Source: Burkholderiales bacterium
Lineage (GTDB): Bacteria > Pseudomonadota > Gammaproteobacteria > Burkholderiales > Burkholderiaceae_E
Reading direction: 5' to 3'
Assembly: GCA_017307915.1 (NCBI GenBank)
Contig: JAFKGG010000380.1
Span: forward strand, 1 to 42,800
Length of the DNA stretch: 42,800 nucleotides
Below the pieces are notes generated by a model. It was given only the letters and a program-made list of their open reading frames with translations, did not search any database and was not told the DNA's origin. Each line of letters begins with the position of its first letter. The stretch's first letter is position 1. Made by a program: the position numbers and the translations under genes. Below are positions 1,939 through 4,820 of this stretch, one piece after another.

Positions 1939-2122
1939 TTGCTCGGGGGCTCGGCAAGCTCGACGCGCACCTTGCGATGCACATCGGCCGGAAAGCCGCG
2001 AACTTGCTGGGCATCAAATTGCAAAGCTCGAATCCATGCGGCTTCGCGGGCCAAATCACCGCGCGACACGCATGAATACGCGTGATCAACCGCGTTGCGC
2101 GGCTGCCGCAGTCGCTACACTC

Positions 2123-2713
2123 TCAATAGGGTCGCACCAGACCGTATGCTTGTGGCAACGCCAACACACGCGGCCAATCGAACCGCGGCCCTGGGTCGGT
2201 CTTGCGATCCGGCGCGATGTCGCTGTGGCCGGCCAGCCAGCGCAACGGGTGGCGCTCGCGCAGCATGGCGATGAGCCGCGCCAGTCGCCGATACTGCGGC
2301 TCGGTGAAACGATGCTCACCATCGCCTTCGAGCTCGACGCCGATCGAAAAATCGTTGCAGCGTTCGCGCTCGCCGAAACGCGATACGCCGGCGTGCCAGG
2401 CGCGCGCGTCGGTGCCGACGAACTGCAGCAGCTCGCCACGGCGGCGGATCAGGAAATGCGAGGACACGCGCAGGCCGCTCAGCGGGGCGAATGCGGGATG
2501 CTCATCGGCATCCAACCGGTTGGTAAACAATCGCTCGACGGCATCGCCGCAGAAGCGGCCGGGCGGCAGGCTGATGTAATGGATGACGAGCAGATCAATC
2601 TCGATGCCGGGCGGGCGCTCGTCATGATTGGGTGATGGCACGTGCCGCGCGCGCCTCAGCCAGCCTGGGGCATCGGGGAGCCAGTCTGCGGGGGGGCTGC
2701 GATCGGGGGTCAC
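2123..2713 (-). CDS. ampD: 1,6-anhydro-N-acetylmuramyl-L-alanine amidase AmpD
   Basis: Cytosolic zinc amidase that splits anhydroMurNAc from stem peptide during peptidoglycan recycling. The Amidase_2 fold is evident: VIHYISLP with H45, SSHFLIR, AWHAGVS, CNDFSIGVELEG and GHSDIAPDRKTDPGP. H45, H163 and D173 correspond to the family zinc ligands. The GTG start chosen gives 196 residues and puts WLRRARHVPSP where E. coli AmpD (183 residues) has its own N-terminal motif. The frame is open upstream to an ATG at 2827, which would add 38 Pro/Arg-rich residues; no clear ribosome site decides between them. It lies between nrdA and the palindromic elements, with amgK, another recycling gene, beyond them. 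Confidence 0.88.
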   Translation of the reverse strand: MTPDRSPPADWLPDAPGWLRRARHVPSPNHDERPPGIEIDLLVIHYISLPPGRFCGDAVERLFTNRLDADEHPAFAPLSGLRVSSHFLIRRRGELLQFVGTDARAWHAGVSRFGERERCNDFSIGVELEGDGEHRFTEPQYRRLARLIAMLRERHPLRWLAGHSDIAPDRKTDPGPRFDWPRVLALPQAYGLVRPY

Positions 2714-2842
2714 GGGGCTGGGCGCTTGAGAGAAGTGGGTGATCTGCTGGCGTGTTGCAGATTGGGCCGGCGGGGGTGGCTGTCGTGCGTGCGGCAGATA
2801 GAACGGACGAAGACGTGGGGCTCGCATGCGACAAGCTGGCGT

Positions 2843-3081
2843 GCGAAGGCGTGGGCGAGGTGGGGTGGCGGAGTAACCGCTTGCCCCCCGCTACGCGGGG
2901 GGTGCCCTGCGGTGCTCGGCCTGATGGCCCCGCGGCATGACTCGCTCCGCGCCCTGCGGGCGCTGCGCTCAAACAGATGCCGCGAGTCAGAAGCACGAGG
3001 CGCGCTGCGCGCGCGGGCCACCAGGCCTGCGCTCCTCGGCTGCGCAGATACCCCGCCACCCCACCTCGCCCACGCCTTCGC
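2843..3081 (+). repeat. Nested palindromic element, copy 1
   Basis: A 239-base element without a credible gene. It is bounded by a perfect 29-bp inverted repeat (2843-2871 / 3053-3081). Inside lie an 8-bp hairpin with a TAC triloop (2884-2891 / 2895-2902), then a 13-bp stem with one mismatch (2918-2930 / 3015-3027) that directly brackets an 84-base core (2931-3014). The core itself holds TGACTCGC/GCGAGTCA (2938-2945 / 2982-2989), GCGCCC/GGGCGC with a TGC triloop (2949-2963), and an alternative pairing GCGGCAT/ATGCCGC (2932-2938 / 2977-2983). Copy 2 has the same plan in the opposite orientation. No flanking target duplication was seen. Family not recognised; it could be a MITE-like or REP-like element or a structured RNA. 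Confidence 0.85.
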
Positions 3082-3294
3082 CGATACAACGGTGGACTGC
3101 AATGAACACACCATCAGTCGCGTGATGACGTGATGGGGTTGTCCGCTCGAAATCCTGGCCCGATACTTGATTACGTCAATCAATTGGACTCGTGGCAGGA
3201 CTTCTTGTTCGCCTATCCCCGGTTCGACTAGTAGGGCTATGAACAATCTGCGATCAATCGACGTGTGTTTCGTCGAAAACAGCCCAAGTTTGTT

Positions 3295-3530
3295 GCGCGG
3301 CGGGTGGTGAGGGGTTTGGCGCGCTGTTTGCGGCGCCGAGCAGCGCAGTCTTGGGGCTGGCGCGCGCAGCGCGCTTCGTACTTCTGACTCGCGGCATCTG
3401 TTTGAGCGCAGCGCCCGCAGGGCGCGGAGCGAGTCATGCCGCGCAGCCCCAAGGCGAGCAGCGCAGGGCAGCCCGCCCGTAGGGCGGGCCGCCGCGATCA
3501 GCGCGCCAAACCCCTCACCACCCGCCGCGC
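3295..3530 (-). repeat. Nested palindromic element, copy 2 (opposite orientation)
   Basis: A 236-base element bounded by a perfect 32-bp inverted repeat (3295-3326 / 3499-3530). Read on the minus strand it has the plan of copy 1: outer arm, an 8-bp hairpin with TAC triloop (3471-3478 / 3482-3489), a TGCCCTGCG box, and a perfect 10-bp stem (3350-3359 / 3444-3453) bracketing an 84-base core (3360-3443). The core matches copy 1 in 82 of 84 bases. Outer arms, TAC hairpin and inner stem differ in sequence from copy 1 but remain self-complementary. The 213 bases between the copies (3082-3294) hold only a 32-codon frame ending at 3231 that I do not recognise. Confidence 0.85.
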
Positions 3531-3630
3531 CGCGCCAAACCTGCGCATGCCACTCCCCGTGCGAACACCCTCGAACCAACCCACCGACAATGCACCCGAC
3601 ATCTACGAAGGCACCCACACCGCGCATCAT

Positions 3631-4701
3631 CTAGAACGTATAACCCGTCTTCACCGCCCGCTGCTCGATCCGTTCGATCAGCCGCGTCAGTGCGTCGAAT
3701 TCGCCGTAGCGGCGCGTCACCGGCAGAACGTAGTTCAGCACGCGCGGCATGTCGGCCAGGTAGCGATCCTTGCCGTCGCGGTGGCACAGGCGGGCGAAGA
3801 TGCCCAGGACCTTCAGGTGGCGCTGCAGCCCCATCCATTCGAAATCGCGATAGAACAGCGAGAAGTCGGCATCGACCGGCAGGCCGCGCCGGCGCGCCGC
3901 TTCCCAGTAGCGTGCCGCCCAGTCGATCTGCTGCGCTTCGGGCCAGTCGATGTAAGCGTCGCGCAGCAGCGACACCAGGTCGTAGGTGATCGGGCCATAG
4001 ACCGCGTCCTGAAAATCGAGCACGCCTGGGTTGTCGCTGCCGGCCAGCACCATCAGGTTGCGCGAATGGTAGTCACGGTGCACGAACACGCGCGGCTGCG
4101 CCAGATTGTTGGCCAGCAGCTTCTCGAATACCGCGGCCAGCTGCTGCTCTTCGGTGGGGCTCAAGGTGATGCCGCGATGCCGCGCCACGTACCATTCCGG
4201 ATACAGCTTGAGCTCGCGTTCGAGCAGCGCGCGATCGTAGTCGGGAAAAACGCCCGGCCGGCTGGCTGCCTGCAGGTCGACCAGGCACCTGATCGCGTCG
4301 CGATACAGTGCGTCGGCCTGCGGGGTGGCGAGCTGCGACAGGTAGGTGGTCGAGCCGAAATCGTCCAGCAACAGAAAGCCGCGGTCGAGATCGGCCGCCA
4401 GCACGGTCGGCACCCTCACGCCGGCGGTGGCAAACGCGCCGGCGGCGGCCACGAACGGGCGGCAGTCTTCCATCGGCGGCGGCGCATCCATCGCGATCAC
4501 GCTGCGGGCGCCAGCGCCGGGGTCGGCGCAATCGATGCGGAAGTAGCGGCGAAAGCTGGCGTCGTCGGAGGCCGGACGCAGCGTGGCGGGCAGCAAGGCC
4601 GGCGGCGTGGGCAGCGCCGGTTGCTGCGAGGCCGGTGAAGCAAGCGAATCGAGCCAGCCGCGCAGCTCGGCCAGCCGAAGGTCTTCGGTATCGGGTGTCA
4701 T
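3631..4701 (-). CDS. amgK: AmgK-type anomeric MurNAc/GlcNAc kinase (aminoglycoside phosphotransferase fold)
   Basis: Cytosolic sugar kinase of the APH fold. In pseudomonads AmgK phosphorylates the anomeric carbon of MurNAc/GlcNAc in the recycling route that feeds UDP-MurNAc synthesis. Visible are the nucleotide-binding N-lobe (DDASFRRYFRI, SVIAMDAP, LLLDDFG), the catalytic loop FVHRDYHSRNLMV and the metal-binding VLDFQDAVYGPITYDLVSLLRD. The ATG at 4701 gives 356 residues, near the family's usual 330-350; an upstream in-frame ATG would run into the lptD leader. It is divergent from lptD, as in pseudomonads, but the usual downstream partner murU is not present; the palindromic elements follow instead. 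Assignment to AmgK rather than a general phosphotransferase rests on motifs and the lptD context. Confidence 0.85.
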   Translation of the reverse strand: MTPDTEDLRLAELRGWLDSLASPASQQPALPTPPALLPATLRPASDDASFRRYFRIDCADPGAGARSVIAMDAPPPMEDCRPFVAAAGAFATAGVRVPTVLAADLDRGFLLLDDFGSTTYLSQLATPQADALYRDAIRCLVDLQAASRPGVFPDYDRALLERELKLYPEWYVARHRGITLSPTEEQQLAAVFEKLLANNLAQPRVFVHRDYHSRNLMVLAGSDNPGVLDFQDAVYGPITYDLVSLLRDAYIDWPEAQQIDWAARYWEAARRRGLPVDADFSLFYRDFEWMGLQRHLKVLGIFARLCHRDGKDRYLADMPRVLNYVLPVTRRYGEFDALTRLIERIEQRAVKTGYTF

Positions 4702-4725
4702 GAAGGGGGCGGCAATGCAGCCCCG

Positions 4726-4731
4726 TATAAT
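4726..4731 (+). promoter_or_regulatory. Candidate -10 box in the amgK/lptD divergent region
   Basis: A perfect TATAAT lies in the 119-base region between the two divergent starts, about 90 bases before the lptD ATG. No recognisable -35 box sits 16-18 bases upstream. The reverse strand reads TATTAT at the same place, so either direction is possible. Confidence 0.35.
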
Positions 4732-4820
4732 AGTCCACCGCCGTTCGAGCTTCGGCATCCACCCCCGGTGCGGCACCGCCCGGGTCCAATCCGTCCACCT
4801 CGCGATTTCCCGCGCGACGA

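Follow-up and report, generated by a model that had tools for sequence, protein, structure and literature searches.

A convergent, gene-free pair of hairpin halves dispersed in Burkholderiales genomes, with a fold apparently conserved as DNA

The locus and the layout of the element

The window analyzed here is a stretch of 42,800 nucleotides from a Burkholderiales contig (JAFKGG010000380.1). Between two genes on its minus strand lies a region in which a first-pass annotation had noticed two nested palindromic elements around a conserved core. The features of the region are as follows.

2123-2827, minus strand: flanking gene of the Amidase_2 family (Pfam), AmpD-like; its start is possibly further in
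2838-3550: composite repeat unit of A hairpin, spacer and B hairpin; approximate limits, from alignment to other copies in the same genome
2843-3081, plus strand: A-type half (239 bp), comprising outer stem, hairpin 1, boxes, inner stem and head
2843-2871, plus strand: left arm of the A outer stem, 29 bp, perfect
2884-2902, plus strand: A hairpin 1, 8 bp with a TAC loop; compensatory variation among aligned copies
2903-2918, plus strand: conserved box TGCCCTGCGGTGCTCG (alignment, column conservation)
2918-2930, plus strand: 5' arm of the A inner stem, with its partner at about 3015-3027 (alignment, covariation)
2932-2938, plus strand: 5' arm (GCGGCAT) of head stem P3, with its partner ATGCCGC at 2977-2983; strong covariation
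2949-2963, plus strand: apical hairpin P4 of the head (alignment, covariation)
3000-3014, plus strand: head hairpin P5, GCGCGC-TGC-GCGCGC (alignment, covariation)
3053-3081, plus strand: right arm of the A outer stem
3082-3294: spacer between the halves, alignable in part and variable among copies; no gene found
3295-3530, minus strand: B-type half (236 bp)
3499-3530, minus strand: 5' arm of the B outer stem, 32 bp, perfect, with its partner at 3295-3326
3631-4776, minus strand: flanking gene for a phosphotransferase of the APH family (Pfam)

From its position next to lptD, we take the APH-family kinase gene at 3631-4776 to be AmgK-like. The measurements of the first-pass annotation were repeated and stand. 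The 82/84 identity of an 84-base core was recovered in a best block that matches 2931-3014 on the plus strand to 3443-3360 on the minus strand, each outer stem was again perfect, over 29 bp in A and 32 bp in B, and hairpin 1, the box and the inner stem were re-read in the sequence at the positions given before. The element had also been said to carry no credible gene, and the open reading frames at 2642-3130 (plus strand) and 2713-3630 (minus strand) have no Pfam match. The longest perfect inverted repeat in the region (span of at most 260) is 32, whereas none of 200 mononucleotide shuffles goes beyond 13, and folding is far stronger than in dinucleotide shuffles for both halves (z of -11.0 and -10.8), with 0 of 200 shuffles as good in each case. 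Covariance-model matches cover 2883-3054 in the A half (163.5 bits) and 3321-3490 in the B half (177.7 bits).

A dispersed unit of two facing halves

The two palindromes are the A (plus strand) and B (minus strand) halves of one convergent, gene-free dispersed element. They are not two separate insertions, as the whole A-spacer-B pair recurs as one convergent unit. A DNA search of the window's own genome with the A half returned 31 matches, some of which are single arms of the same copies, and the alignment of seven whole loci from that genome showed that what is repeated is A, a variable spacer and an inverted B, in a unit of about 0.6-0.9 kb. In the copy-rich genome G005 of the same genus, 38 matches in the fetched regions resolve into 15 pairs and 8 single halves, and all 15 neighboring pairs are convergent. 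Two of these (L111 and L115) are B-B rather than A-B pairs, and in three (L104, L114 and L116) the A half lacks the usual hairpin 1; in the latter a further hairpin repeat, beginning GGTGGCAAGGCGCGAACCGC, stands in place of A's outer part or directly next to it. In most aligned loci A and B are separate subtypes that differ in hairpin 1 and in their ends, the exceptions being L041, L043 and L044, which belong to neither subtype. Among weak distant matches convergence does not always hold, as in L179 (divergent) and L180 (a tandem of two). A GGTTGRCGCG-like motif was seen by eye at both unit ends in some copies. Several copies, in genome G002 (e.g. L159) and at L021 and L003 of the window's own genome, are bordered at the A end by short tandem repeats with a length of about 16 bp (GCGTGCGnnGGTT-like). 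There are also truncated copies. At L018 (G000:C295, about 1496-1755) the left part of A is fused to the right part of B through the core center and the middle of the pair is missing, as if it had been lost by deletion of the large inverted repeat; this form may also be an assembly artefact.

Further copies had been sought in the genome and its relatives by means of a covariance model (R1), for which the shared part of 170 nt was taken from 51 copies, and they were found in the window's own genome, in relatives of the genus and beyond. R1 detects at least 20 copies in the own genome, copies in at least 17 of 18 genomes of the same genus and at least 40 copies genome-wide in G005. In the family it matches at least 25 of 74 genomes, from at least 5 of 16 genera, and in the order Burkholderiales at least 60 of 300 sampled genomes (E of at most 1e-6), from at least 32 of 134 genera. 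Across the phylum, 9 of 299 sampled genomes have matches, two of the nine being inside the class but outside the order. Several of the genomes compared are incomplete assemblies, and the named records with close copies are metagenome-assembled genomes titled Burkholderiaceae or Pseudomonadota. Of the distant named pairs, one is in Comamonas odontotermitis (NZ_CP083452.1) and another in Variovorax paradoxus (CP063167.1). Each pair is convergent and lies clear of the listed genes; these copies have a hairpin of the type CTTTCTT...AAGAAAG near each outer end (L240, about 2460-2990; L241, about 2460-3120). Phage records gave no match, and viral contigs gave none for one exact pattern. G330, a genome of another family, contains six pairs with an identical 267-nt offset, whose ends look, by eye, like those of A and B in the genus. 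Since the A/B pair is thus found in another family, it is either older than these families or has been passed between them. In the flanks of L183, L185 and partly L182 from this genome, the units lie between another inverted repeat, beginning GCTTGCGGCCCTTT.

Dispersal can be followed at individual sites. In G002, five units are nearly identical through both hairpins, differ in spacer length and end sharply, after which the flanks are unrelated. On the 3' side of ampD, a B half is found in G005 and a pair in G002, and inspection by eye gave end-like remnants in G013 and G004, with weaker ones in G006. One of the other loci read at this site has a weak model match (L150, 20.5 bits) and the others have none. 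The orthologous ampD site, located in each genome with an imperfect protein query and then judged by eye, therefore presents the element as present, as absent and as probable scars. No target-site duplication was recognized in the compared copies, including the G002 and G330 units; such an absence would fit a single-strand mechanism.

Covariation of the fold and the level at which it is kept

The halves hold the same fold while their letters change, and the covariation is very strong. Across 128 distinct cores, 97.2% of the cells are paired, as against 28-50% in controls with slid partners, and 739 cells are changed on both sides versus 215 (sd 13) in shuffles, where cells count sequences and not events. 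Outside the genus, pairing amounts to 93.5% in 40 rows (alignment A3) and to 93.4% in the 36 rows left once a fragment and three antisense matches that duplicated counted copies had been taken out; in both sets, 40 of 44 pairs show two-sided change. Alignments A2 and A3 were fitted to the model and hence lean towards the model structure, and in the unfitted alignment A1 two-sided change is seen in 25 of the 44 pairs. The first alignment took in 51 of 68 hits, truncated, rearranged or odd hits being left out. Further copies, in which a loss of pairing would have refuted the first-pass annotation, still pair in the core and in the outer arms. Columns conserved at 95% or more make up 40 of the 82 unpaired head columns versus 42 of the 88 paired ones; the two classes are equally conserved, which suggests that the folded head is recognized. 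A second pairing in the head, a pseudoknot of GACTC with GAGTC, was considered and rejected, as GAGT changes to GAGA and AAG with the partner unchanged.

The order in which changes accumulate could also be read from the cores. Among nearly identical cores (46 row pairs) there are 28 one-sided and 9 two-sided changes, and in cores more than 20% divergent 80% of changes are two-sided. One-sided changes thus prevail at low divergence and two-sided ones only at higher divergence, so that compensation looks stepwise. The first-pass annotation had spoken of independent divergence with kept pairing; pairing is indeed kept, but this description is too simple, since single mispairs seem to appear first and to be compensated afterwards.

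Covariation is usually taken as proof of structured RNA, and together with the intergenic position it would recommend a structured regulatory RNA or another element acting at the RNA level (terminator, stabilizer or sRNA). Selection at the RNA level on the element strand should, however, strongly favor G-T over A-C, and the wobble signature expected from it is absent by comparison with RNase P of the same order (18 of 30 fetched control loci used; match in 41 of 41 genomes). In the core, GT and AC stand at 155:57, versus 163:8 in RNase P; a single fixed pair accounts for 109 of the core GT, and with that pair set aside G-T wobbles do not outnumber A-C. The outer arms, counted beyond 16 nt, have 51 GT and 83 AC in 118 of 122 elements (128 distinct rows less 6 short ones, with 4 of the 122 skipped near contig ends). 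The one-sided share of changed standard pairs comes to 6.0%, to 3.4-3.8% and, unfitted (MAFFT), to 4.4%, against 31.4% for RNase P. As wobble is rare and, the fixed pair aside, shows no strand bias, a structured RNA is unsupported. Identity to a catalogued element was checked as well, and no Rfam family reaches its gathering score in positions 2000-4500 of the window or in 23 scanned loci. Below threshold there are three matches in one of these scans and one in another, the best being mir-2545 (E of 1.4e-6, 49.6 of 94 bits) in the spacer of the Variovorax pair, outside the hairpin halves. No terminator-like site was found in positions 2000-4600. We therefore consider an RNA-level function very improbable. 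The fold is apparently conserved as DNA and not as RNA, although low wobble is compatible with transcription. Of the two identities offered earlier for the element, a MITE/REP-like family is supported, and a structured RNA, given a wobble pattern unlike that of RNase P, is not.

The arms raise the separate question of what keeps them complementary. In G005, B arms reach at least 100 bp in 16 of 23 copies, one of them standing at 171, the limit of the search. Over a length of 75 bp, the two arms of a copy have a mean complementarity of 95%, and between copies B arms are 64% identical versus 58% when shuffled, with cores 93% identical; the comparison takes in 22 of the 23 copies, L108 being left out for its interrupted arm. 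Complementarity could on this evidence be kept mainly by mutation, that is, by template switching during replication, which would repair one arm from the other and leave palindromes that are perfect yet fast-drifting. G005 B arms match their own partner and hardly those of other copies while cores stay alike, and differences between A outer stems of the own genome are mostly two-sided (96 versus 24 one-sided, from 7 copies and 21 non-independent comparisons), both of which fit such a process. One study reports that hairpins arise and persist through template switching (PMC8794818). Correction alone gives no account of the conserved unpaired letters of the head, however, and the predominance of one-sided changes in the most similar cores means that most core changes were not simultaneous. 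As the main cause, template switching is hence a possible but rather doubtful explanation. As agents of re-matching, we think that selection for folding and hairpin-templated repair are both to be favored.

Comparison with known systems and possible mobilization

The best explanation, which we hold to be moderately probable, is that the element is a non-autonomous, REPIN/MITE-like mobile repeat with facing A and B halves that is kept through its folded DNA form. This reading follows from the dispersed copies, the unrelated flanks, gain and loss at one site, the convergent pairs and covariation without wobble. From one DNA strand, each half can be extruded into a long stem with hairpin 1 and a branched head; the head consists of a stem of 7-8 bp capped by an apical hairpin, plus a side hairpin, and presents the conserved unpaired letters. 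A putative enzyme would act on the folded single-stranded or cruciform DNA, copying or moving the pair; copies that still fold would be those that spread, and arms that had become mispaired would later regain their match through such selection, through repair templated by the hairpin, or through the two together.

A transposase was found neither in between the halves nor next to them. In the genus, the Y1 transposase family (PF01797) matches 3 of 18 genomes, two of them over the cut-off, and a search for HUH Y2 transposases, a weak one whose built-in control was silent in 14 of 14, gave 2 of 18. Among the 17 element-bearing genomes tested, nine have a Y1 match (eight matches in G273 alone), and none was found in G005, G079, G075, G023, G330, G240, G209 and G628, some of which are incomplete assemblies; G005, G330, G079 and G075 are copy-rich. 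Given the nine genomes with a match, a Y1-type helper may serve the element in some genomes. Autonomous copies were sought in the wide gaps of G079, G240 and G203, where none of six open reading frames matches a transposase family: three have no Pfam match, and the others encode a LysR regulator, a helix-turn-helix protein and a FemAB/GNAT-like protein.

The element was further compared with known systems, in so far as the available parts of their descriptions allow. REPINs and BIMEs are intergenic, non-autonomous dispersed units of two inverted palindromic repeats, associated with RAYT transposases (PMC3116915). The present element is likewise an intergenic, non-autonomous inverted doublet of palindromic repeats, but each half has a core of about 170 bp and arms of about 30 to more than 100 bp, compared with 20-40 bp for a REP. 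It also differs in its branched head, in its two distinct halves, mostly forming a heterodimer, and in that no Y1 transposase was found in 8 of 17 element-bearing genomes. Because it is larger, mostly heterodimeric and does not track Y1, it is not filed under REPIN/BIME, although it appears to work like one. GTAG- and CGTC-tagged REPs (PMC3733652) are interspersed palindromic DNA of 20-40 bp with paired arms and dimers, features that recur here at a much larger size. BRE, a GC-rich repeat of about 90 bp known from Bordetella, Comamonadaceae and Azoarcus, is usually intergenic and often in tandem with variable number, and the available part of its description contains neither a fold nor convergent pairing (PMC3110155); its taxa overlap with those of the present element, from which it is set apart by description and not by sequence. 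Bor-1 of Bordetella (PMC2267715) is an intergenic, structured stem-loop family with many copies, like the element, but shorter (93-117 bp), again as compared by description. The available part of a survey of non-coding RNAs (PMC8632094) holds nothing on the element, and a literature search of partial coverage returned no description of such a paired element. With MITEs it shares a short, non-autonomous dispersed unit and, in some copies, similar outer ends, but no target duplication was recognized in the compared copies and no cognate insertion sequence found in the wide gaps searched. In integron attC sites, a GTTRRRY/RYYYAAC core in a folded single strand is recombined by IntI.

Instead of being selfish, the element could serve the host as a chromosomal landmark, for instance a BIME-like site for a protein or for gyrase. 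Its presence in at least 17 of the 18 genus genomes and its position between genes at the sites looked at are in line with such a role, but the ampD site differs among species and the bias in gene orientation is not significant. A preference for the 3' ends of genes, suggested at first by 0 of 23 divergent sites, was not upheld against the background (divergent at 4 of 35 sites versus 30 of 157, p = 0.34), in a test that used crude ORF calls and in which one ORF spans the element at L118. We judge the landmark reading improbable. Returning to the mobile repeat, we tentatively suggest, as a wider and less likely proposition, a superfamily that extends across the order and into other orders of the class. 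Its members would be mobile elements with a heritable identity that lies in a folded single-stranded or cruciform DNA shape, an A/B dumbbell moved by a putative enzyme class; copying templated by the hairpin would rewrite their long mid-stems, replacing the letters but preserving the shape.

Inverted repeats of more than 100 bp are usually considered unstable, and the element keeps near-perfect ones despite the usual instability of that size. Its many natural copies offer material to separate selection for DNA folding from correction by template switching. Its many compensated changes without RNA wobble, judged against RNase P of the same order, make it a candidate for a clean case of structure conservation at the DNA level, and the element points to a putative mobilizing system in a large bacterial order.
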